IMG/VR virus record: IMGVR_UViG_3300012920_000204
Location: 1 to 27,490 of that record
Length of the DNA: 27,490 nucleotides
Source of the DNA: a virus
Direction: 5' to 3' (one strand)
The position numbers and the translations under genes were made by a program. Of the stretch, positions 5,047 to 27,490 are shown one piece after another. The number at the start of each line of letters is the position of its first letter. Within the stretch, counting starts at the first letter, position 1. A model generated the notes under the pieces. It ran no database searches, had not been told where the DNA came from, and saw only the letters and a list, made by a program, of their open reading frames with translations.

Positions 5047-5403
5047 TTAGTCCTCTGTATCTGAAGGCTTAACTCGATTTAAAAAATCACGATCACGGTC
5101 TTGACCATCGACACCGCCTCGCATAAATGATACTGCAAAGCTTGCATAATTAATCATGTCTTTAAACGAATCTTCAACTGACTCAAAGTTCGGCTCATAG
5201 TTAGGATCGAGTTCCATTGCTTCAACAACACTTTGAGCACGAAGCACTTTAGCGTAAATGATTTCAAGAATTGTCTTTACTCCGCTTGGATAGTAATCGG
5301 ATTGACGAATTCTTGACTGAGGGTTCTGATAGTCGTTTGACTTTTTAATCTGAAGTTCAGCGCATTCTTTTAAAACACGAAGGCTTTCTTTATCGTTATT
5401 CAT
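5047..5403 (-). CDS. DUF1599-like protein (nucleotide modification associated domain 1)
   Basis: A 118-residue, mostly helical protein. KKSNDYQNP, then a Lys-Arg helix (IYAKVLRAQSVVEAM) and ESVEDSFKDMINYASFA fit the DUF1599 pattern (K..DY...K..R...ES..D...DL.NY). This family is all-alpha and related to MazG-type nucleotide pyrophosphohydrolases; it recurs in phage loci for modified nucleotides. The start at 5401-5403 is fixed by the promoter: TATAAT ends exactly 6 nt upstream, so a longer reading frame to 5496 would begin upstream of the transcription start. It is the first gene of the operon containing the deaminase, glycosyltransferase, phosphatase, nucleotidyltransferase-kinase and methyltransferase. 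It may remove an unwanted nucleotide or bind a modified one (inference). Confidence 0.7.
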   Translation of the reverse strand: MNNDKESLRVLKECAELQIKKSNDYQNPQSRIRQSDYYPSGVKTILEIIYAKVLRAQSVVEAMELDPNYEPNFESVEDSFKDMINYASFAVSFMRGGVDGQDRDRDFLNRVKPSDTED

Positions 5404-5409
5404 ATTGCT

Positions 5410-5438
5410 ATTATACACTATATAAGGGTGAATGTAAA
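5410..5438 (-). promoter_or_regulatory. leaderless-type promoter of the modification operon
   Basis: TTTACA (5433-5438), 17 bp, TATAAT (5410-5415), then 6 nt and the ATG at 5403. The expected transcription start coincides with the A of the ATG. It is the only promoter I see for the six genes between 5403 and 210. Confidence 0.8.
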
Positions 5439-5441
5439 TAA

Positions 5442-6107
5442 TTATTTGACAAACTTGAAGTGACGTTCGTACACGTGAAGTGAGCCAACCTGCCAAGTGA
5501 TATCACCAACTTTATAATTGGCTTCACCGTGAAGGTTAATATGAGCAACAAGAGTTTGCAGAACATACAGTTGCCAAGCATAGTCATTGCGATAGCCAAA
5601 GATAACGTCATTGCTTCGCATTTGAACAACTGCGTTTACTTGGTTTCCTCGGATAAGATATTGAACTGCGTTAGTGCAGATAAAGTCAGACATGCCGTTA
5701 ACACAAAAGTCTTCGTGCATTGTCGGCCGTTGGTAAATCATTACCGCTCTGCGGCTTTGGCGATCAACAAGAAGCTGTCTTAAAACCTTTTGGTATTGAT
5801 TGAAGTTTTCTTCGCTGTTGATAAGATACCCATAGTTGGAGTTGATCTTACCATCATCAGAGGAAATGCTTTTCCAGATAGCAGGAGTTTCACCAGGGAT
5901 ATCTTCAACGTTTAAGCTTTGGCTTTCGTACCAATCAATTTCACGAGAGATGTATTCTTCATTAGGTGTACCAAAGATTGCTGGAGCATCAGCAAGAAAG
6001 CTTGCACCAACAAGATCGAGTGTTTTGACTCCAGTTTTGTCTTCTACATATTCTTCATTCTCAAGTGCAGAAATGAAGTAAGAGCGTATGTCTTTTATTG
6101 TTTGCAT
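5442..6107 (-). CDS. 42: dCMP hydroxymethylase
   Basis: A 221-residue protein matching T4 gp42 along most of its length: DKTGVKT, a LVGASFLAD segment, DIPGETP.IW, INSNYG, GMSDFICTN (catalytic Cys144), MRSNDVIFGYRNDYAWQ and VGSLHVY.RHF. It makes 5-hydroxymethyl-dCMP from dCMP and methylene-tetrahydrofolate. The Asp in RNDYAW (Asp175) replaces the Asn of thymidylate synthases and selects cytosine over uracil, so this is a hydroxymethylase rather than ThyA. It ends about 25 residues earlier than T4 gp42 (246), losing only the C-terminal tail. It has its own leaderless-type promoter and directly precedes the modification operon, as in T4-like genomes where gene 42 lies near uvsX. It implies that phage DNA contains hydroxymethylcytosine. 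Confidence 0.95.
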   Translation of the reverse strand: MQTIKDIRSYFISALENEEYVEDKTGVKTLDLVGASFLADAPAIFGTPNEEYISREIDWYESQSLNVEDIPGETPAIWKSISSDDGKINSNYGYLINSEENFNQYQKVLRQLLVDRQSRRAVMIYQRPTMHEDFCVNGMSDFICTNAVQYLIRGNQVNAVVQMRSNDVIFGYRNDYAWQLYVLQTLVAHINLHGEANYKVGDITWQVGSLHVYERHFKFVK

Positions 6108-6113
6108 GTGTTA

Positions 6114-6142
6114 ATTATACAAAAAATTTCGTAAAATGTAAA
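6114..6142 (-). promoter_or_regulatory. leaderless-type promoter of gene 42
   Basis: TTTACA (6137-6142), 17 bp, TATAAT (6114-6119), 6 nt, ATG. The -35 box begins a few bases after the stop codon of the preceding small gene. Confidence 0.82.
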
Positions 6143-6457: not shown

Positions 6458-6621
6458 GGGTTAATAAGATCAAGTCTTTCAGGGTTAACATCGTGTTCTC
6501 CGCCAATGCGGTCAATACAAAAGTAATCACCGGTGTCGGGATCACGCTCTTCAACAATGGCCCAGACAATTCCGTCAATAAGAACTTCTGAACCGCGTTC
6601 GATTTCTTCTTTGTTTTTCAT
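6454..6621 (-). CDS. small unknown protein (55 aa)
   Basis: Unrecognised, hydrophilic. It begins MKNKEEIERGSEVLIDG and continues with WAIVEERDPDTGDYFCIDR and GGEHDVNPERLDLI. The alternating pattern suggests a small beta-barrel like those of phage proteins with an SH3-like or KOW-like fold, but this is a guess from pattern only. The stop TGA overlaps the next ATG. It begins 10 bp after the stop of the 78-residue gene, without an SD. Confidence 0.6.
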   Translation of the reverse strand: MKNKEEIERGSEVLIDGIVWAIVEERDPDTGDYFCIDRIGGEHDVNPERLDLINP

Positions 6622-10769: not shown

Positions 10770-13247
10770 TTATCCAAAAAATTGTTCAAGATCGGCCACA
10801 GGTTCTACGTGCCAACCAATTGCATCAAGTATCATCTTGATCGGATCAACGAATGTTTTACTAAACTGCAGATCGTAATCAATGTATCTATCAAGTTCAA
10901 GTTCAGTTGGAAGATGATCCGGAAATGAAATAATGTTTTGCTGTAGCGTGTTAGGCTTTTTAAGATATACAAACTTAATCTTATCACCACTTTGAATCAG
11001 CGGAAACTTTTTATCCAAGCCGCGATCTTTAATAGCTTTATTGTATAGCAAGGAACCTCGCACATGAATAGGTGTACCTTTTTCAAACACTGTGCTGGAG
11101 TTAGCCCACTTACGAAGAGCATTAACTCCACGAGGAAAGGCAACCTTATCAGCGGATAATACGCTGAAGTGCTTTTTGAAAAGTTGAATGGCTTCTTGAG
11201 TTTTACCTTCATCACCAGTCATGATAATCTTGAACATTGCGTTCATGGCTTCACGACAGACTTGAGGAGTTGAACTCTTAATAGCCTCAATACCCATGAT
11301 CTTAATCTTTGGTTCTGCATACTGAACACCTTCGTTATTATGAACATTGAGAATGTATCGTTTCTTTGCAGTCCAGATTCCACGATCAGCAATGGCTTCT
11401 CGTTTCATCACCATGCGATTACAATAAGCAGAGGAATCTTCAGCAAATTTATCAAACGCTTTGGCCAACATTGGCTCAATCGCTTTACTGCCAAACTCAT
11501 CAAGAAAGGCAACAGGATCTTTCGGCTTAAACTTATCAATCACATCCTTCACACCAATGTATAAAGAGTCGGTATCAATCGCAATAACACGATCCTTCTT
11601 TTCTTTGAGAAAGTCATCCAGAAAGTCGTTAACTTTTTCTTCAGCATACTTGATAACCGCCTGTCCAGTAAGAGTGATTCCAGACGCAATGCGAAGATCA
11701 AAGTAGCGAAAGTACTTGTTACCACACGCACCGTAAAGTGAGTTAAGAAGAATCTTTACCGCCGTTTGAGAAGTATCAAGTCTTGCCACATTACTTTCAG
11801 CAACCTTCCTTGCGCCTTTATCCGACTTGCTAACCTTTTCCAAACTCTGCTTGGCAAGAATCATTTCATCTTTAATGCCAACCCTTTTAGCATAAAGCTC
11901 TTCAACAATCTCTGGAATAATACCTTTCTTAGCTGTGCTGAATACCGCACCGTTAGCTGCCTTTGCACCAATAGGGTCCTTCATTGGCAACAGTGTTTCA
12001 GGCGACATATTGTATTGAACAATAAGATTAGGATACAGAGAGTTAAGGTCAAACGACATAACCCAGTCATGCATACCAACATGAGGTTCCTTTACAAAAC
12101 CACCTGGGAATGTTTCGGAATAGTTTTCTTTACTTGGTGGGATTGCAATCTTTTTCTTAGCCAACCGCCGAAAGATAATGCTGTCCCATATCGCTGTTGT
12201 TCCAAGTGTGTCGGTATAATTCACACCACCCAGATAAGCCATGGTTAAGACCAATGTAATAAGGCCTAGCTTTTCTTCCATTCGCTCGATCAGCTCAACG
12301 TCCTTGATATTATAATCAACAAACATTTGATAGTCAGCATCATAAAGATCACGAAGAGTACCAATCTCTGAATAGTCGAGTTTCTTCTCGCCAAGAACCA
12401 CACTTGCAATATGATTAAGTGAATAAGACTCTTGGTTACCATAAGTGTAAGCAAACTTTTTGAACAGCTCCATGTAGTCAAGAGACTGAACTCCGCTTAT
12501 ATCAAAAGTAACTTGAGTCTTACCCATGATAGTAATTTCTCGTCTGTCAATCTTGCCCCAAGGGGAGAAGCTTTTAGCAATGTCTTCCCCAAGCAAAACC
12601 GCGGATCGAGAAACAAGATAAGGAATATCAAAGAAACGTGTATTCCAACCTGTGATAACATCAGGTGTGTATTCAGGTTGCGCCCAGTGATCAATAAAGT
12701 CGTGAAGCATTTCAGCCTCTGATTCAAACTGACGATACTCGATTTGCAGGTGAGTTAGTTTGGACACGGAAGCATCATAAGGCTTGATACCCCATACACG
12801 ATACCGATCTTCACGACTTGACTTATAAGCAATTGTAAGGATTTCGTTTGTAGGATTATCCACATTAGGAAAGCCATCTCCGTAAGAAGTCTCAATGTCA
12901 AGAGAAGCAACATCAATGTTTGCTCGAGAATACTTTATCTCGTCGGGAAACTGACTTTGAATAAAAGCAGGAATGTGACGTGTATTACCGTAAAGCTTAA
13001 AGTCAGGTACGCCGTCGTAAGTCTTTTCAAACTGCCGAACTTCAGCCATCGACTCGAATCGCATGGGCTCAACTGGAGTACCGTCAAGGGCCTTCCATTC
13101 AGTGTCCTCGTTTTTAGACTGAAGAAAAAGCTGAGGACGATACTTAATCTTATGTCTTACTTTGTTGCCGTCGTCATCATAACCTCGATAAAGAAGTTGG
13201 TTACCAAAGCGGTCAACACAAGTATAAAAACCTTCTATTGTAAGCAT
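10770..13247 (-). CDS. 43: T4-type family B DNA polymerase
   Basis: An 825-residue family B polymerase, complete and uninterrupted (T4 gp43 is 898). 3'-5' exonuclease motifs: DIE at 117-119, N202-TRFF-D207, and Y312-NIK-D316. Polymerase motifs: A, FDLNSLYP (Asp400); B, KILLNSLYG (498-506); C, DTDS (558-561). The C-terminus LEQFFG is a sliding-clamp-binding peptide like those of T4-type polymerases. It is the replicative polymerase acting with gp45 and gp44/62. First gene of an operon that also holds MazG-like, primase-like, two unknown proteins and the halogenase. The -10 box ends 6 nt before the ATG, so the mRNA is predicted leaderless. A leaderless message would have no untranslated site for RegA repression, which in T4 acts on the gene 43 region. 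Confidence 0.97.
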   Translation of the reverse strand: MLTIEGFYTCVDRFGNQLLYRGYDDDGNKVRHKIKYRPQLFLQSKNEDTEWKALDGTPVEPMRFESMAEVRQFEKTYDGVPDFKLYGNTRHIPAFIQSQFPDEIKYSRANIDVASLDIETSYGDGFPNVDNPTNEILTIAYKSSREDRYRVWGIKPYDASVSKLTHLQIEYRQFESEAEMLHDFIDHWAQPEYTPDVITGWNTRFFDIPYLVSRSAVLLGEDIAKSFSPWGKIDRREITIMGKTQVTFDISGVQSLDYMELFKKFAYTYGNQESYSLNHIASVVLGEKKLDYSEIGTLRDLYDADYQMFVDYNIKDVELIERMEEKLGLITLVLTMAYLGGVNYTDTLGTTAIWDSIIFRRLAKKKIAIPPSKENYSETFPGGFVKEPHVGMHDWVMSFDLNSLYPNLIVQYNMSPETLLPMKDPIGAKAANGAVFSTAKKGIIPEIVEELYAKRVGIKDEMILAKQSLEKVSKSDKGARKVAESNVARLDTSQTAVKILLNSLYGACGNKYFRYFDLRIASGITLTGQAVIKYAEEKVNDFLDDFLKEKKDRVIAIDTDSLYIGVKDVIDKFKPKDPVAFLDEFGSKAIEPMLAKAFDKFAEDSSAYCNRMVMKREAIADRGIWTAKKRYILNVHNNEGVQYAEPKIKIMGIEAIKSSTPQVCREAMNAMFKIIMTGDEGKTQEAIQLFKKHFSVLSADKVAFPRGVNALRKWANSSTVFEKGTPIHVRGSLLYNKAIKDRGLDKKFPLIQSGDKIKFVYLKKPNTLQQNIISFPDHLPTELELDRYIDYDLQFSKTFVDPIKMILDAIGWHVEPVADLEQFFG

Positions 13248-13253
13248 GATATA

Positions 13254-13293
13254 ATTATATCAAAATTCTAGGAAAATGTAAATCCTAAAATGC
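13254..13293 (-). promoter_or_regulatory. leaderless-type promoter of gene 43
   Basis: GCATTTT (13287-13293), 4 nt, TTTACA (13277-13282), 17 bp, TATAAT (13254-13259), 6 nt, ATG at 13245-13247. It lies in the 55-bp gap after the small CPMC membrane protein gene. Confidence 0.83.
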
Positions 13294-13506: not shown

Positions 13507-13538
13507 GCGGCCCGACAAACAAAAGTCTGCCGAGCCGC
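13507..13538 (-). terminator. hairpin after hsp20, probable terminator
   Basis: GCGGCCCGAC and GCCGAGCCGC can pair as a GC-rich imperfect stem around an A-rich loop, 12 bp after the hsp20 stop. On the minus strand it is followed by ATTGTTTATA, a weak T tract, so termination may be partial. Confidence 0.5.
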
Positions 13539-15606: not shown

Positions 15607-16551
15607 TTACTTCTTCCACGCCACGTTCGCCATCAACTCGGTAAGGCACGCAACCATATTAAGTTCTTTATCAGCTACAAAAGCTGCTTTATATTGATAG
15701 TCTGCAAGAACAAGAACCGCAGAAGGAACACCTGCAGGCTCAGCATAATCGCTTAGTACATCGTATACTTTACGGAAAATAGAAGAGCTATCAAGTGTTG
15801 CGTTATTTGCTACCCAGGCTCGCATACTCTTAAAGTCCTTTGACTTGAGATGCGCGATAACTTCAGCAATACTTTCATCACTGTTACCAATAAGAATGGC
15901 TGCAGGAATCTCACCAGTGCTGCTATAACGCTGACACTCACCAATAACCCTACGCCAGTCTGGTGCATGACGAATAATAAGTTCAGCAATAACCTTTTCG
16001 TTATAAGTGACGCCTTCTTTATCAAGGATGTCCTTAAGACGACCCATGAACTTGCTGGCAAGACCGGCAAGTTGCTTTTTGTTTGTATTGAACTCGACAA
16101 CTGCGCACCGACTGTGAAGAGGCTCGATAAGACGATTCTTAAAGTTGCACGTAAGAATAAATCGACAGTTGTTGCTAAACTCTTCAATGAATCCACGAAG
16201 TGCGGGCTGTGTACTTTGTGCGTTAAGGTAATCAGCCTCATCAAGAATGATAACCTTGATACCTCCGCTAAGACTAACAGTACTTGCGAATTGTTTAATC
16301 TTATTACGAAGAACGTCGATGCCGCTTTCTTCCGAGCCGTTGATTAGCATCCAATCTAATCCAAGCTCGTTACATAACGCTTTGGCTACGGTTGTTTTAC
16401 CAGTGCCAGCGGTTCCAGAAAGAAGCATGTTATGCAGCTCTCCGCTTTTAACGATTCCATTGAACGTGTCTTTAAGATCTTTAGTAAGAACACATTCATC
16501 AATAGTCTTGGGTCTATATTTTTCGACCCATAAGAATTCACTTTTACTCAT
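15607..16551 (-). CDS. 44: clamp loader large subunit gp44 (AAA+)
   Basis: A 314-residue RFC-type AAA+ ATPase (T4 gp44 319). WVEKYRPKTIDECV opens the domain; Walker A is GTAGTGKT (46-53), Walker B VIILDEAD (100-107), sensor 1 LTCNF, and the SRC arginine-finger motif lies at 147-149. The C-terminal collar helices follow. It loads gp45 on primer-template junctions with gp62. Its own promoter ends 6 nt before the ATG, predicting a leaderless mRNA covering 44-62-regA. RegA follows in the same transcript, as in T4. Confidence 0.97.
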   Translation of the reverse strand: MSKSEFLWVEKYRPKTIDECVLTKDLKDTFNGIVKSGELHNMLLSGTAGTGKTTVAKALCNELGLDWMLINGSEESGIDVLRNKIKQFASTVSLSGGIKVIILDEADYLNAQSTQPALRGFIEEFSNNCRFILTCNFKNRLIEPLHSRCAVVEFNTNKKQLAGLASKFMGRLKDILDKEGVTYNEKVIAELIIRHAPDWRRVIGECQRYSSTGEIPAAILIGNSDESIAEVIAHLKSKDFKSMRAWVANNATLDSSSIFRKVYDVLSDYAEPAGVPSAVLVLADYQYKAAFVADKELNMVACLTELMANVAWKK

Positions 16552-16557
16552 GATATT

Positions 16558-16597
16558 ATTATAACAAATTTAATGCTTTGTGTAAATCACAAAGTTA
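16558..16597 (-). promoter_or_regulatory. leaderless-type promoter of gene 44
   Basis: TAACTTT (16591-16597), 4 nt, TTTACA (16581-16586), 17 bp, TATAAT (16558-16563), 6 nt, ATG at 16549-16551. Confidence 0.82.
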
Positions 16598-17311: not shown

Positions 17312-17986
17312 TTAAGCTGTAAATGTTGAAGATTTTTCAAGAGCGATGTAGTACTCAATAGGAGATGCAGTGTTTTCCCAGCGAGAGATAAACTTAGAGC
17401 TTACGTCAACCTTATAGTCTCCGCTAATTACACGAATGTTCGAGATAAGAAACTGAAAGTCAAACTCGGACTTACAATCATTGTCTTCATCAACCACCAT
17501 GTCAAATGTATTGGCCGAAGAGTTTTTGTTATCGGTAACACTAAGGCTAACAGCACCGTCTTTACCGGCGATTGAAACAACCGAATGGCCAAGAACAGCA
17601 GCAGCTTTACGAACTTGAGAAAGTTGATCGGCAGTAACCGTTACGCTTACATCAGCATCGGGCATGTTGATTTGACTTGTTGGAGCAGTAAGAATATTGG
17701 TATCAGCAAAACGATAAGAAGCTTTACTGCGGCCGTTCTTAAGCAAAACAGATTCATCGCTAAACTCAAGAGTAGGATCGCCAACAAGGTTCACTACGTT
17801 AATGAATTCGTTTAAATCGTAAATGCCAAAGTCACTTTTAAATGTCTCAGGAATTGTTGCCTTGGCAAAAACATTCTTAGCTTCAGCGATAGTTGAAAGA
17901 GGCTCACCGGCCTTCACAACCAAGTTAGGATTAATACTTGCAAAGTTCTTAAGAACTTCGAGTGTTTCAGTTGATAGGTTTGTCAT
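17312..17986 (-). CDS. 45: sliding clamp gp45
   Basis: A 224-residue protein (T4 gp45 228) at the position of gene 45, ahead of 44 and 62. Typical features: MTNLSTETLEVLKNFASINPNL, FGIYDLNEFINVV, ADTNILTAPTSQI, and a C-terminal YKVDVSSKFISRWEN with SPIEYYIALEKSSTF. It forms the trimeric ring that tethers gp43 and, in T4, also carries gp55/gp33 to late promoters and contacts alpha-glucosyltransferase. The -10 box ends 6 nt before the ATG (AGAACC between), so the mRNA is predicted leaderless. Confidence 0.95.
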   Translation of the reverse strand: MTNLSTETLEVLKNFASINPNLVVKAGEPLSTIAEAKNVFAKATIPETFKSDFGIYDLNEFINVVNLVGDPTLEFSDESVLLKNGRSKASYRFADTNILTAPTSQINMPDADVSVTVTADQLSQVRKAAAVLGHSVVSIAGKDGAVSLSVTDNKNSSANTFDMVVDEDNDCKSEFDFQFLISNIRVISGDYKVDVSSKFISRWENTASPIEYYIALEKSSTFTA

Positions 17987-17992
17987 GGTTCT

Positions 17993-18021
17993 ATTATATA
18001 CTAATTTAATTCAAATGTAAA
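17993..18021 (-). promoter_or_regulatory. leaderless-type promoter of gene 45
   Basis: TTTACA (18016-18021), 17 bp, TATAAT (17993-17998), 6 nt, ATG. It starts 11 bp after the terminator stem of the upstream gene. Confidence 0.83.
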
Positions 18022-18032
18022 TAAAAATAAAT

Positions 18033-18065
18033 GGTGGCTGGGCACCACCACAATACCCAGCCACC
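18033..18065 (-). terminator. rho-independent terminator
   Basis: A perfect 10-bp stem GGTGGCTGGG/CCCAGCCACC with a 13-nt loop. On the minus strand it is followed by ATTTATTTTTATTT. It lies 13 bp after the stop of the winged-helix-like gene and insulates gene 45. Confidence 0.88.
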
Positions 18066-19620: not shown

Positions 19621-19660
19621 ATTATACCATAATTTTGGGAAACTGTAAATAATAAAGTTA
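19621..19660 (-). promoter_or_regulatory. promoter of the CobS-like gene
   Basis: TAACTTT (19654-19660), 4 nt, TTTACA (19644-19649), 17 bp, TATAAT (19621-19626). Here the ATG is 32 nt past the -10, leaving a leader of about 25 nt rich in CCA/CTAC and lacking an SD. Confidence 0.8.
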
Positions 19661-24221: not shown

Positions 24222-25303
24222 AGTGCATCCAGAGTTTGAGCTTCAATGTAAAGCTCTTGAAGTTTGTTTTTAATGCGATCGCGATTCAAGTCAGTTTGAA
24301 CAGAATCCACATACGTATTTAAAAGGGTGATTGTGTCAGTTAATTCAAGCGCGGTTTCATCTACATTTTCAGAAAGGTATTCGTCAAAGTTTTCAACGAT
24401 CTTCAAATCAAATGGATTCCTAGCAATAATTTCATCAATGTATTTGTCAAAAAGAAATGGGTTCTTCTTGTTAACCACAACCACTTTGATATATGATCCA
24501 CTTACTGCATCAAAGTCGATCTTATCCAGCTCTGCTTCAACATCATCGCTTGAGTTGATATCATCATACCGCATACGGTTATAAATCGTAATCTTATTTC
24601 GGACTGGAGTAAGCTCACGTGTTTCGGTATTAATTACGTGGAAGTATTTAGGATCATCGCAGTCGGCCCATGTAAGCTCATAAGGAGTACCAAGATAATG
24701 GATATTTCCCTTTGCGCTTTTCGTATGATAGTGACCACTCATTACCAACTCGAATCTGGAAAAGATATCCGATGCCATTCCATGGCTAGAAGACTGAACG
24801 CCTTTCATCATATCAAATCCTGCAAGCTCAAGGTGGCCGCCAAGGAACGGTGCCTTTACTGTTTTGATAAAGTCAATACACTCTTCATAATTTTCTTCAT
24901 TGATCCAAGGTAGTAAACCAATATCCAAGCCATCATAACTGACTACCGTTGGATCCATGTGAAGGTTAATTACGTCATCGTAATGACTAAGAATTTCTGT
25001 TAAGCTATTTAAATCATTTGTGTTTTTGTAGAAAACATCGTGGTTCCCTGGGATCAAATCCATGGTCATACCTTCTTCTCTAAGGCGATCAATGAACATA
25101 CTTCTGTTGCGGGCAAGTACCTTGATATTGGCAAACCGCCGATGATCAAAGTAATCACCAAGGTGAAGGATCTGAGTGATACCATTCTCCTTGCAATAAG
25201 GAAAGAATACTTCATCGTAAAACCTTTCCGCGTAATCCAAGAAGATCCCACTACCGTTCTTGACACCGGTATGGGTGTCAGTAATTACAGCTATTTTACT
25301 CAT
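24218..25303 (-). CDS. 47: recombination nuclease subunit gp47 (Mre11/SbcD-like)
   Basis: A 361-residue calcineurin-type phosphoesterase (T4 gp47 339). Motifs: DTH (9-11), GDYFDHR (Asp50, Asp53), GNHD (86-89), GHLE and GHYHTKS. It is the nuclease partner of gp46. The start ATG lies within the last codons of gene 55 (8-bp overlap) and the end overlaps the gene 46 start, so 55-47-46 form a coupled unit. Confidence 0.96.
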   Translation of the reverse strand: MSKIAVITDTHTGVKNGSGIFLDYAERFYDEVFFPYCKENGITQILHLGDYFDHRRFANIKVLARNRSMFIDRLREEGMTMDLIPGNHDVFYKNTNDLNSLTEILSHYDDVINLHMDPTVVSYDGLDIGLLPWINEENYEECIDFIKTVKAPFLGGHLELAGFDMMKGVQSSSHGMASDIFSRFELVMSGHYHTKSAKGNIHYLGTPYELTWADCDDPKYFHVINTETRELTPVRNKITIYNRMRYDDINSSDDVEAELDKIDFDAVSGSYIKVVVVNKKNPFLFDKYIDEIIARNPFDLKIVENFDEYLSENVDETALELTDTITLLNTYVDSVQTDLNRDRIKNKLQELYIEAQTLDAL

Positions 25304-25931
25304 CTTCTTTAAAGAATTCGTTTAAAGGACCATGGGTAACGGCCTTCTTTGCTGGACGACCCCGCTTCTTTTTCTTCGGTAGGGGTTTATCTTCATCTTG
25401 ATCAATCCAGTGTTCTTCATCCCACATTCCATTGCGGTGACGCATTCTTTCAACAATTGATTCGCCAATAGCATTAATATCATCAGTACCAAACTCAGCA
25501 AAGGCATCAATCGAAGTGTTGTCGATAATCCTTTGCTTGATTTCAGTTTGGCGCTTTTCTTTTGCAATTCGGCGAAGGAAACAAAAGTAACTGATTTGAG
25601 TAAAGTAACTAAAGGCGTTTGGTACTCCGGTTCTTGTTGGTTTGTTAATATCAAAGTTATTAATAACCTTAACGCAGTTTTCTACCGCGTCCATAACCAT
25701 ATCCTCTCTGTAGGTATAGTTAATAAAGTTGGGACTACGGGATAAACCGTTTGCGATTTTATAAAGACACAGACCAACATAATCGGTAATTGGCCGAGGC
25801 TCTTTGCCTTTGGCTTCGTCTTCTTTTACTCCTCGGACGTGCTCCGCCACGGCTTCTCCGAATTCTTTGTTATTAACGTAGTCAACGGAGTCCTTTCTCC
25901 GTCGTGTACGCTTCTTACTTGGCTCTGGCAT
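25296..25931 (-). CDS. 55: late sigma factor gp55
   Basis: A 211-residue protein (T4 gp55 185). VDYVNNKEF matches the T4 N-terminus (YNYVNNKEL). DYVGLCLYKIANGLSRSPNFINYTYREDMVMDAVENCVKVINNFD and PNAFSYFTQISYFCFLRRIAKEKRQ-type text (given here in part) correspond to the sigma region 2-like core. The tail is longer and basic (PKKKKRGRPAKK, like an AT-hook), then ends LNEFFKEDE, comparable to T4's C-terminal clamp-binding LDFLYE. It directs RNA polymerase to TATAAATA late promoters, with gp45 as activator. It has a leaderless-type promoter, and heads the 55-47-46 operon. Confidence 0.95.
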   Translation of the reverse strand: MPEPSKKRTRRRKDSVDYVNNKEFGEAVAEHVRGVKEDEAKGKEPRPITDYVGLCLYKIANGLSRSPNFINYTYREDMVMDAVENCVKVINNFDINKPTRTGVPNAFSYFTQISYFCFLRRIAKEKRQTEIKQRIIDNTSIDAFAEFGTDDINAIGESIVERMRHRNGMWDEEHWIDQDEDKPLPKKKKRGRPAKKAVTHGPLNEFFKEDE

Positions 25932-25937
25932 ACTACT

Positions 25938-25977
25938 ATTATACTATAAAAATTGAATAAAGTAAATAAAAAAGTTA
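25938..25977 (-). promoter_or_regulatory. leaderless-type promoter of gene 55
   Basis: TAACTTT (25971-25977), 4 nt, TTTACT (25961-25966), 17 bp, TATAAT (25938-25943), 6 nt, ATG at 25929-25931. Confidence 0.82.
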
Positions 25978-26000: not shown

Positions 26001-26040
26001 TCATTTTATCCTTTACAGGCATAAACGAATTTGATATAAT
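26001..26040 (+). promoter_or_regulatory. plus-strand phage promoter, antisense to uvsW region
   Basis: TCATTTT (26001-26007), 4 nt, TTTACA (26012-26017), 17 bp, TATAAT (26035-26040), then 6 nt and an ATG (26047-26049) that opens only Met-Trp-Ile-stop. All spacings equal those of the minus-strand promoters. It faces rightward, opposite to every convincing gene. A GTGG...CCAC weak hairpin follows at once. Confidence 0.65.
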
Positions 26041-26072
26041 AATCCTATGTGGATTTAAAAAACCACTAAAGT

Positions 26073-26384
26073 TCAATTAAGGGTATCATCCTCGAACATC
26101 TTGATCCTATAGTCAGTATACTGATCATAATACTGTTTCTTCAAGGCAATTCCGGCAACCATCTCTGATTCAATTCGTTCGTCAAGAATCAGGAAAGGAA
26201 CATTAAAGCTGAAAGGATAAAGTGGTTCAATACCAAAGGGTTCAAATACAAATCCATTAAGCAGGAACAAACCATGTTCGTCACTGCCGTGATACTCGCC
26301 GACAATACAGCGACCAGCGGTTGTCGTGATGGCACGAATGTCAACGCTGTTAAGATAGTCAAGATAATCGTCACTTGGTGTCAT
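26073..26384 (-). CDS. unknown protein (103 aa), possibly Sm-like fold
   Basis: Function not recognised. VDIRAITTTAGRCIVGEYHGSD followed by GLFLLNGFVFEPF has the strand-turn-strand look of Sm/LSM-type beta barrels, and LDERIESEMVAGIALKKQYYDQY is a C-terminal helix; this is weak evidence. It starts inside the end of uvsW (14-bp overlap), so it is translated from the uvsW transcript. The plus-strand promoter just downstream could produce RNA complementary to it. Confidence 0.68.
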   Translation of the reverse strand: MTPSDDYLDYLNSVDIRAITTTAGRCIVGEYHGSDEHGLFLLNGFVFEPFGIEPLYPFSFNVPFLILDERIESEMVAGIALKKQYYDQYTDYRIKMFEDDTLN

Positions 26385-27490
26385 CAGGCATATTCATTGT
26401 GATTTCAAAAACTTTGTAATTAAACCCTTCTCTAGTATATATCTCAATTCTTTCTTGCGCGTGTTTCATGGTATAGTTCTTTCTTTTACGCCAAGAAAGG
26501 TTATCGGATATATCGTAAATGGTAGTACCTTGGCCGTCATCTGACTTTCGTAGTCCCCGCCCAATACTTTGCAGCACTCTGATTTGACTTTTTGTTGGAG
26601 CTGCAAATACAATGTTGTGAAGGTTCTTAATATTAATGCCTGTGCTGAAAGTTCCGGCAGAAGCAACAATGATTGCATCTTTTTCAGACTCGGTAATTTC
26701 ACGAATGGTTTCTCTTTCAGTGGCATTCACTTCTCCACTAACATAAAAGATTTTTCTGTCATCGTCAGCCATTTCTTTTATCATATTATAAAGTGGCTTA
26801 CCGTGTTTCTTAACAAGATTAAATATCACAAGAGTATTTCCCTTTTGTGTTAATGCTAACTTTGATATAAATTCGTTACGCAGCGGATGTTCAACAATGG
26901 TCGCAATCTCCGCCTGATAATTCATCTTGGCCACGGCCTTTCTCAATACATCGTCGTGCTTTAAAACAATACACTGAATCTTAAGATTTGCAAGTGTGTC
27001 ATTATCAATAAGGTTCTTGGTAGTAATTACTTTGTGTATAGGACCAAAGTTTCCGATAAGAACAAGTTCATTACACTGGCTTCCATCCAGCGTTCCTGTT
27101 GTACCAATTCTATATCCAGCACCTGACAAATTATTCATTATAGTATTAAGGCTTTTGGCTTTAAACAAATGAGCCTCATCCCCTACCACCATACCATACT
27201 GACTGAACCAACCTTTCCCACACTTAATAGCACTTTGCCAAGTGGTAATAACAACGTTAGCTTCAAAGTTGTGCTTTTCTTTACCTGAATAAATCTGGTG
27301 ACATAATACGTCTGCGTCAAACTCTGGATCGTTAGAACTATAATCAGCAAAGTCCTTTTTCATTTGCTCTACCAACGAAGTGGTTGGAACAATAATCAGC
27401 GCTCTGTTCTTGTAGTTTTCCAAGAAGTATCGAATCATTAAATAAATGATAAGACTTTTTCCTGAGCCTGTTGGACTAATGATAAGTGAC
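26371..27490 (-). CDS. uvsW: UvsW DNA/RNA helicase, C-terminal part (5' end beyond window)
   Basis: The frame stays open to the right edge, beyond the first ATG at 27438; the translated edge reads SLIISPTGSGKS, which contains Walker A, so the N-terminal DNA-binding domain is outside the window. Further motifs: IIVPTTSLVEQM (Ia), VVGDEAHLF (DEAH, II), GTTGTL (III), FYVSGEVNATERE, VASAGTFSTGINIKNLHN (V) and QSIGRGLRKS (VI). These match T4 UvsW (IVPTTALTTQM, VSGEVDTETR, STGISVKNLHH, QTIGRVLRK). UvsW is a superfamily 2 helicase that unwinds R-loops and branched DNA and helps shift replication from origin-dependent to recombination-dependent initiation. Confidence 0.95.
   Translation of the reverse strand, partial: SLIISPTGSGKSLIIYLMIRYFLENYKNRALIIVPTTSLVEQMKKDFADYSSNDPEFDADVLCHQIYSGKEKHNFEANVVITTWQSAIKCGKGWFSQYGMVVGDEAHLFKAKSLNTIMNNLSGAGYRIGTTGTLDGSQCNELVLIGNFGPIHKVITTKNLIDNDTLANLKIQCIVLKHDDVLRKAVAKMNYQAEIATIVEHPLRNEFISKLALTQKGNTLVIFNLVKKHGKPLYNMIKEMADDDRKIFYVSGEVNATERETIREITESEKDAIIVASAGTFSTGINIKNLHNIVFAAPTKSQIRVLQSIGRGLRKSDDGQGTTIYDISDNLSWRKRKNYTMKHAQERIEIYTREGFNYKVFEITMNMPDDTK

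Follow-up and report, generated by a model that had tools for sequence, protein, structure and literature searches.

Operators laid over start sites are common, and the repressor operators of lambdoid phages overlap the promoter start site. To our knowledge, late-gene timing in the T4-like phages considered here proceeds without the MotA/AsiA logic of T4, and we know of no palindrome at the start site, nor of any element conserved throughout a clade, connected with the antisense transcription of T4 gene 32. Host-like sigma70 promoters of T4-like cyanophages, together with a novel element at early genes, were reportedly described by Doron et al. in 2016. Antisense transcription to gene 32 of T4 is itself known from 1987 work cited in the available part of PMC3014915, and the available part of PMC3016281 describes T4 oriF as needing a middle promoter and UvsW as destroying origin R-loops.

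The window analysed here, the whole stretch of 27,490 nucleotides, is part of a T4-like phage genome; at the DNA level its closest named relative is C48C1 (Kyanoviridae). On its plus strand it carries a promoter that the first-pass annotation had singled out as a lone element followed by a three-codon frame. The -35 element TTTACA (26012-26017) is invariant across eight aligned sequences and conserved in relatives, with TTGACA at this place in cyanophages, and is followed after a 17-nt spacer by the -10 element TATAAT (26035-26040), identified by a promoter scan and in the eight-sequence alignment; with both hexamers and a spacing inside the 16-18 nt criterion, the antisense promoter fits the sigma70 type. 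Upstream lies an A/T-rich stretch (26001-26011, plus strand) composed of TCATTTT (26001-26007) and four further nucleotides, and ATTTT-like stretches are found at the same place in the relatives L020-L086. An ATG at 26047-26049, 6 nt after TATAAT, opens the frame ATG-TGG-ATT-TAA (M-W-I-stop; 26047-26058). The promoter parts, their spacings and this frame are exactly as described previously, while an inverted repeat directly after the -10 element, AATCC-TATGT-GGATT (26041-26055, plus strand), is a feature absent from the earlier description and, on comparative statistics, a putative operator. The conserved TGT in its centre (26048-26050) would place the transcription start at G 26049, from which a predicted antisense transcript would read into the neighbouring gene ORF103 and uvsW (26049-27490, plus strand); a terminator scan listed no plus-strand terminator-like site after 26049 within the window.

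The complete pattern TTTACA-17-TATAAT-6-ATG occurs six times in the window, the antisense element being the one plus-strand instance beside five on the minus strand, versus 0.00 expected from 100 dinucleotide shuffles of the window. The element had been said to match the minus-strand promoters in every spacing, which holds for five of the seven exact TTTACA-17-TATAAT sites on that strand (their genes include gp43, gp44, gp45 and thymidylate synthase) but not for those at 19626 and 199, where the ATG at 6 nt is missing, and the gp55 promoter (25943) has TTTACT; the claimed upstream match, TCATTTT, is present in the window but shared loosely. Six minus-strand genes, gp43, gp44, gp45, thymidylate synthase and gp55 among them, have an ATG 6 nt after TATAAT and are probably expressed from leaderless mRNAs; the sites lie at 5401-5438, 6105-6142, 13245-13282, 16549-16586, 17984-18021 and, for gp55, 25931-25966 (all minus strand). 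At gp55 the 6-nt distance is found in 4/4 window-type clusters, 11/23 of L020-L086 and 23/55 Mosig-like loci, and is 20-26 nt in Syn9-like cyanophages. Strong terminator-like hairpins were also observed on the minus strand at 18033-18065, upstream of the gp45 promoter, and at 13507-13538, before gp43 (stems of 15 and 14 bp).

Conservation of the element was assessed from gp55 scans of viral contigs that kept, for each query, its 80 best loci and yielded at least 319 loci in total. The plus-strand promoter is present in 13/13 close gp55 relatives. Of 67 loci at greater distance (gp55 identity 48-64%), 66 also have it opposite gp55, the one exception having 44 nt of upstream sequence. Among the matches listed, 315 of 319 loci had at least 200 nt upstream and were reduced by k-mer de-replication to 183 clusters; 134 of these 183 gp55-upstream regions contain an antisense promoter agreeing at 11 or more of 12 positions and 170 one agreeing at 10 or more, compared with 1.5% and 15%, respectively, of 3660 same-size antisense windows taken elsewhere in the same loci. 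AT-rich DNA does give many weak matches (49 versus 41.4 expected in a general scan), but with no exact pattern in the shuffles and 134/183 of the regions listed against 1.5% of controls, we give next to no credence to a chance promoter-like sequence.

Of 17 records of named phages, picked by hand from the hit lists, 15 have a gp55-opposed promoter within the gap, or 16 of 18 when Stenotrophomonas phage DLP6 is counted. The others are Syn1, ACG-2014b, P-RSM1, P-HM2, S-SSM7, ACG-2014e, Syn33, S-RIM44, S-ShM2, S-RIM2, Syn9, Mosig, S-SKS1, C48C1 and Sinorhizobium phage phiN3, so that the hosts comprise Synechococcus, Prochlorococcus, Pelagibacter, Sinorhizobium and Stenotrophomonas. The promoter was not found in P-TIM40 and Caulobacter phage Cr30, in the latter of which another gene adjoins gp55, and no clear element was found in P-TIM40, L316, L332 or L350 (566 nt searchable in L350), indicating that the element is not indispensable everywhere. 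Lack of conservation had been named in advance as grounds for abandoning the antisense interpretation and is excluded by these counts, and the proposal of a promoter antisense to the gene at 26073 and to uvsW gains the backing of conservation, position and strand, as a prediction from sequence comparison. Taken together, these comparisons identify a conserved element and not a relic, and it is almost certain that the antisense promoter is functional.

The first-pass annotation had also offered the remains of a lost leaderless gene as an explanation, to which may be added a promoter serving some small ORF that escaped annotation. Such a gene would account for an ATG distance equal to that of five minus-strand leaderless genes and for a short ORF in L015-L018, but no relative shows an ORF signal: among the 172 elements scoring 10 or more as promoters, the sample also used for the palindrome statistics below, three have an ATG at the 6-nt distance, ORFs of at least 30 aa follow 44/172 elements versus 47/172 shuffled sequences (median 13.5 versus 18 aa), and frames are broken by indels between L015 and L019. 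ATG-TGG is kept by the same-species contig L007 alone among the 13 close gp55 relatives, and L007 was the sole match when the whole viral collection was scanned for the promoter followed by ATGTGG. A lost or overlooked gene is thus barely more credible than chance. A third suggestion, a short RNA ended by a GTGG/CCAC hairpin, is not supported, as this hairpin is found in the window and L007 only of eight aligned sequences.

The element occupies a defined place in a conserved gene order, which runs major head, tail tube, uvsY, uvsW, small gene, element, gp55, gp47, gp46 and is interrupted by insertions that differ between lineages. In the window, gp55, encoding the late sigma factor and first of the replication (middle) cluster, lies at 25296-25931 on the minus strand behind a sigma70-type promoter, TTTACT-17-TATAAT (25938-25966, minus strand), with its ATG 6 nt further on. 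Rightward of the element all genes are on the minus strand, as described before: ORF103, the small gene and last of the late operon (26073-26384), and the 3' part of the uvsW helicase gene (26371-27490), which runs off the window and is a full ORF in L095, a longer contig of the same species. The predicted antisense start lies 24 nt from the end of the ORF103 stop codon in the window; among the matches listed, 139 of 147 loci have it 0-42 nt beyond the stop of this Sm/LSm-like (LSm) gene, with a median of 21 nt. At ten loci that had seemed to lack the element, 281-859 nt containing ORFs of 46-268 aa separate the element from gp55, and the LSm stop is still 25-51 nt away; since the element stays beside the LSm gene despite an insertion before gp55, it belongs to the end of the late operon. 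A role as divergent partner of the gp55 promoter is ruled out by the same behaviour. Some Mosig-like phages with an extra gene between element and gp55 are L315, L318, L319, L327, L328, L331, L333, L339 and L347, the inserted gene often being an ORF of ~81 aa.

In L095 the tail-tube gene has a late-type TATAAATA immediately ahead of it and is followed by uvsY-uvsW-LSm; from this late TATAAATA to the start of uvsW no sigma70-type promoter was found, and the contig has no plus-strand site with both hexamers exact apart from the element. By this promoter layout the element lies where the late cluster borders on the replication cluster headed by gp55, and is directed into the late one. Late-type TATAAATA sites in L095 lie at 6515, 11031 and 13252 (minus strand), and at 6515 an ATG follows after 5 nt, which suggests a leaderless mRNA for the late tail-tube gene as well. 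The element thus lies opposite a convergent gene, reads into it and is conserved in that arrangement, as a cis-antisense promoter would be.

The inverted repeat of the window has counterparts in most of the related elements. Among the matches listed, 121 of 172 elements have a Watson-Crick palindrome score of at least 4, and 99 of the 121 palindromes begin exactly after the -10 element; the gp55 gene's own promoters reach this score in 34 of 173 cases (four at that offset) and shuffled sequences in 25-31 of 172. The arms vary by lineage while their complementarity is kept, with 26 different perfect arm pairs. Repeats seen outside the window include AATCTT-ATC-AAGATT, AACTCT-GTC-AGAGTT, AGGTGC-CAT-GCACCT, GGTCT-ATGT-AGACC, CCGG-TATGT-CCGG and TCAGG-TGTCG-CCTGA. 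When right halves were re-dealt among loci, the number of contiguous palindromes spanning 4 bp or more fell from the observed 63/172 to a mean of 19.9 (maximum 33), and outside the Syn9-like and P-HM2-like sets from 31/75 to 4.1 (maximum 11). TGT is present in the centre region of 152/172 elements versus 3/173 of the gp55 promoters, consistent with an initiator in which G is +1; the ATG of the window, being part of the TATGT centre, is accidental, and its frame is a chance one and not a gene. The palindrome score is below 4 in 51/172 elements, no convincing repeat was found in several of them (L072, L074, L076, L083) and that of C48C1 is weak. Read on the plus strand, most of the pairs that depart from Watson-Crick are A.G or T.G and none is A.C, a bias that a DNA operator does not predict and that would suit a plus-strand hairpin, although stronger constraint on the transcribed arm would also explain it; in cyanophages the right arm, which is the transcribed one (AGGGTT), varies less than the left arm. 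With the palindrome at a fixed place relative to the promoter, as befits the operator of a dimeric regulator, we consider an operator its likely identity.

Further copies of the element point in the same direction. Syn9 has a second copy before gp88, and of 14 cyanophage records searched with a cyanophage-specific pattern, which makes the counts in other lineages lower bounds, 13 match and 11 have 2-3 copies, whereas the reversed pattern gave 0. Single copies were found in Mosig, C48C1, P-HM2, S-SSM7 and the window-type contigs, and extra copies in cyanophages only. Within a genome the spacers differ between copies and the palindromes are alike: for 25 copies from 10 genomes, leaving out the two near-duplicate genomes G004 and W14, the mean within-genome palindrome distance is 1.4 versus 3.39 expected, a value reached in 0 of 20000 permutations. 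The same sequence is therefore found at other promoters of the genome in 11/14 cyanophage records, and a lineage-specific palindrome shared in this way is most likely bound by a dimeric, fast-evolving, trans-acting phage regulator. The copies precede phrog_718 genes (eight genomes), cpeT and other small genes; since these are ordinary genes, the operator may be a general switch and not one built for antisense control. The phrog_718 gene (67 aa) lies directly downstream of the second copy in L354 (3295-3507), L403 (2345-2548) and L406 (2100-2318), and a copy before the cpeT antenna gene (L402, 1545-1613; ACG-2014b, 12546-12589) would bring an auxiliary metabolic gene into the putative regulon. 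As a universal regulator phrog_718 was rejected, for it is present in 12 of 23 records only, Mosig, C48C1 and S-SSM7 not among them; it has no Pfam match.

The position at the operon end could also be read as that of a boundary insulator, in which polymerase at or leaving the antisense promoter would collide with late polymerase and end late transcripts after LSm, sparing the gp55/replication cluster read-through, with a small hairpin forming on the sense strand at the LSm end. The 0-42 nt distance from the last late gene's stop in 139/147 of the loci listed, the retention of this place when a gene is inserted before gp55, and a lack of synonymous constraint, in view of which what counts may be transcription itself and not its product, are all compatible with this. 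However, the promoter and palindrome drive ordinary cyanophage genes where no operon end needs closing, the sense-strand wobble (A.C on the plus strand) is the one never seen among the non-Watson-Crick pairs, and the window scan listed no GC-rich hairpin with U-tract at the element on the sense strand. The sequence after the hairpin is ATTATA-like and has no U-tract, making a sense-strand terminator hairpin a weak fit, which we rejected. An insulator is accordingly unlikely, if still the strongest of the competing explanations.

The gene next to the element invites another explanation. ORF103 has no Pfam match itself, but its AlphaFold model (pLDDT 91.1) superposes on PDB 3by7_B over 76 residues with a Z of 10.5 and an rmsd of 2.2 A, a profile built from 16 homologues matches 3by7 (E=3.1e-12), and the Syn1 homologue matches Pfam Sm_like above cut-off; relatives are labelled "methylamine utilization protein" or "hypothetical" in the records. 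On this modelling ORF103 is an Sm/LSm-like (Hfq-fold) protein, conserved beside uvsW across these phages. ORF103 and its homologues share the fold of PDB 3by7 (Pfam PF16243), a likeness of the neighbouring gene only and not of the promoter. A trans-acting small RNA chaperoned by this protein would make sense of the adjacent gene and of the more uniform right arm (AGGGTT) in cyanophages. The loci of ten relatives gave 0 Rfam matches above the gathering score, no obvious conserved sequence extends past ~20 nt from the start, and where the RNA would overlap LSm, synonymous conservation of the last 20 codons versus the rest is 0.544/0.541, 0.469/0.493 and 0.559/0.517 in three groups, all of which argue against such an RNA and leave it improbable. 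Without raised synonymous conservation the RNA sequence is not visibly selected, which fits cis-antisense control or the act of transcription.

A transcription-primed origin resembling T4 oriF/ori(uvsY) is doubtful to a similar degree. Here an R-loop near uvsY-uvsW would prime DNA synthesis and UvsW would later unwind it, in keeping with a conserved promoter that lacks an ORF and with the middle promoter of oriF and the R-loop removal by UvsW described in the accessible part of PMC3016281. No GC-skew extremum lies at the element in five complete genomes (which is not direct replication evidence), the region from +10 to +110 is not an A+T-rich unwinding region (AT 0.666 versus a locus mean of 0.656, higher in 94/164), and the extra copies drive ordinary genes, all of which speak against an origin.

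Our preferred reading is an early/middle, operator-controlled antisense promoter that would restrain the late uvsW-LSm operon, a mechanism to which, as a whole, we assign a probability of about 0.5. It builds on the conservation, strand, position, palindrome, concerted multiple copies and absent coding signal established by comparison. A sigma70-type promoter for host RNA polymerase would be kept by selection, in antisense orientation, at the 3' end of tail tube-uvsY-uvsW-LSm, and the palindrome around its predicted start site would be bound by a dimeric, fast-evolving, trans-acting phage regulator. During early and middle infection host polymerase would fire into the LSm-uvsW end, and convergent transcription and/or antisense pairing would limit leaky expression from the late genes for recombination. 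As infection proceeds, the putative regulator over the start site would alter promoter output, and operator and polymerase change together would shift the balance, ending the restraint on the uvsW-LSm operon. Cis-antisense control needs neither coding nor conserved sequence, so the predicted RNA need have neither. A delay of the recombination phase by antisense RNA, as first proposed for this site, would be plausible.

A regulated, conserved antisense switch of this kind is apparently undescribed within the limited literature searched; no report of the antisense element was found in the limited open-access literature, and a prior description is possible. The phages that carry it belong to the most numerous T4 relatives of marine waters, and their late-gene timing is poorly known. 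The element supplies exact predicted start sites for RNA-seq, such as ~123,698 (minus strand, antisense) and ~52,776 (plus strand) in Syn9 (DQ149023), and a palindrome with which to fish out the regulator. It is also a direct test case for whether antisense transcription keeps UvsW late, UvsW being, in the available part of PMC3016281, the destroyer of origin R-loops in T4. More generally, apparently empty phage promoters can be conserved control elements.

Compared with the described systems, the element shares with the antisense transcription of T4 gene 32 that a T4-type phage would be transcribing antisense to its own gene, although locus and gene differ. With T4 oriF/ori(uvsY), as covered by the available part of PMC3016281, it shares a promoter near uvsY, a transcript (here a predicted one) that needs no coding function and a late-expressed counter-actor in UvsW, but differs in lacking both a skew signal and an A+T-rich region for unwinding. 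The host-like sigma70 promoters of cyanophages have the same TTGACA/TTTACA-17-TATAAT form, also at gp55, whereas the element is antisense, gene-less and provided with a start-site palindrome that the gp55 promoter lacks. Tentatively, and with somewhat less assurance than for the antisense mechanism, T4-like phages infecting marine and freshwater bacteria may possess a small regulon in which a regulator and its start-site palindrome co-evolve by lineage and the one position kept across lineages, an antisense promoter, gates the late operon for recombination and RNA binding (uvsY-uvsW-LSm), a temporal switch unknown in T4. Like lambdoid operators, its palindromes lie over the start site, are lineage-specific and occur in several copies per genome; unlike them, their arms are very variable between lineages, the regulator is putative, and one copy would drive antisense transcription.
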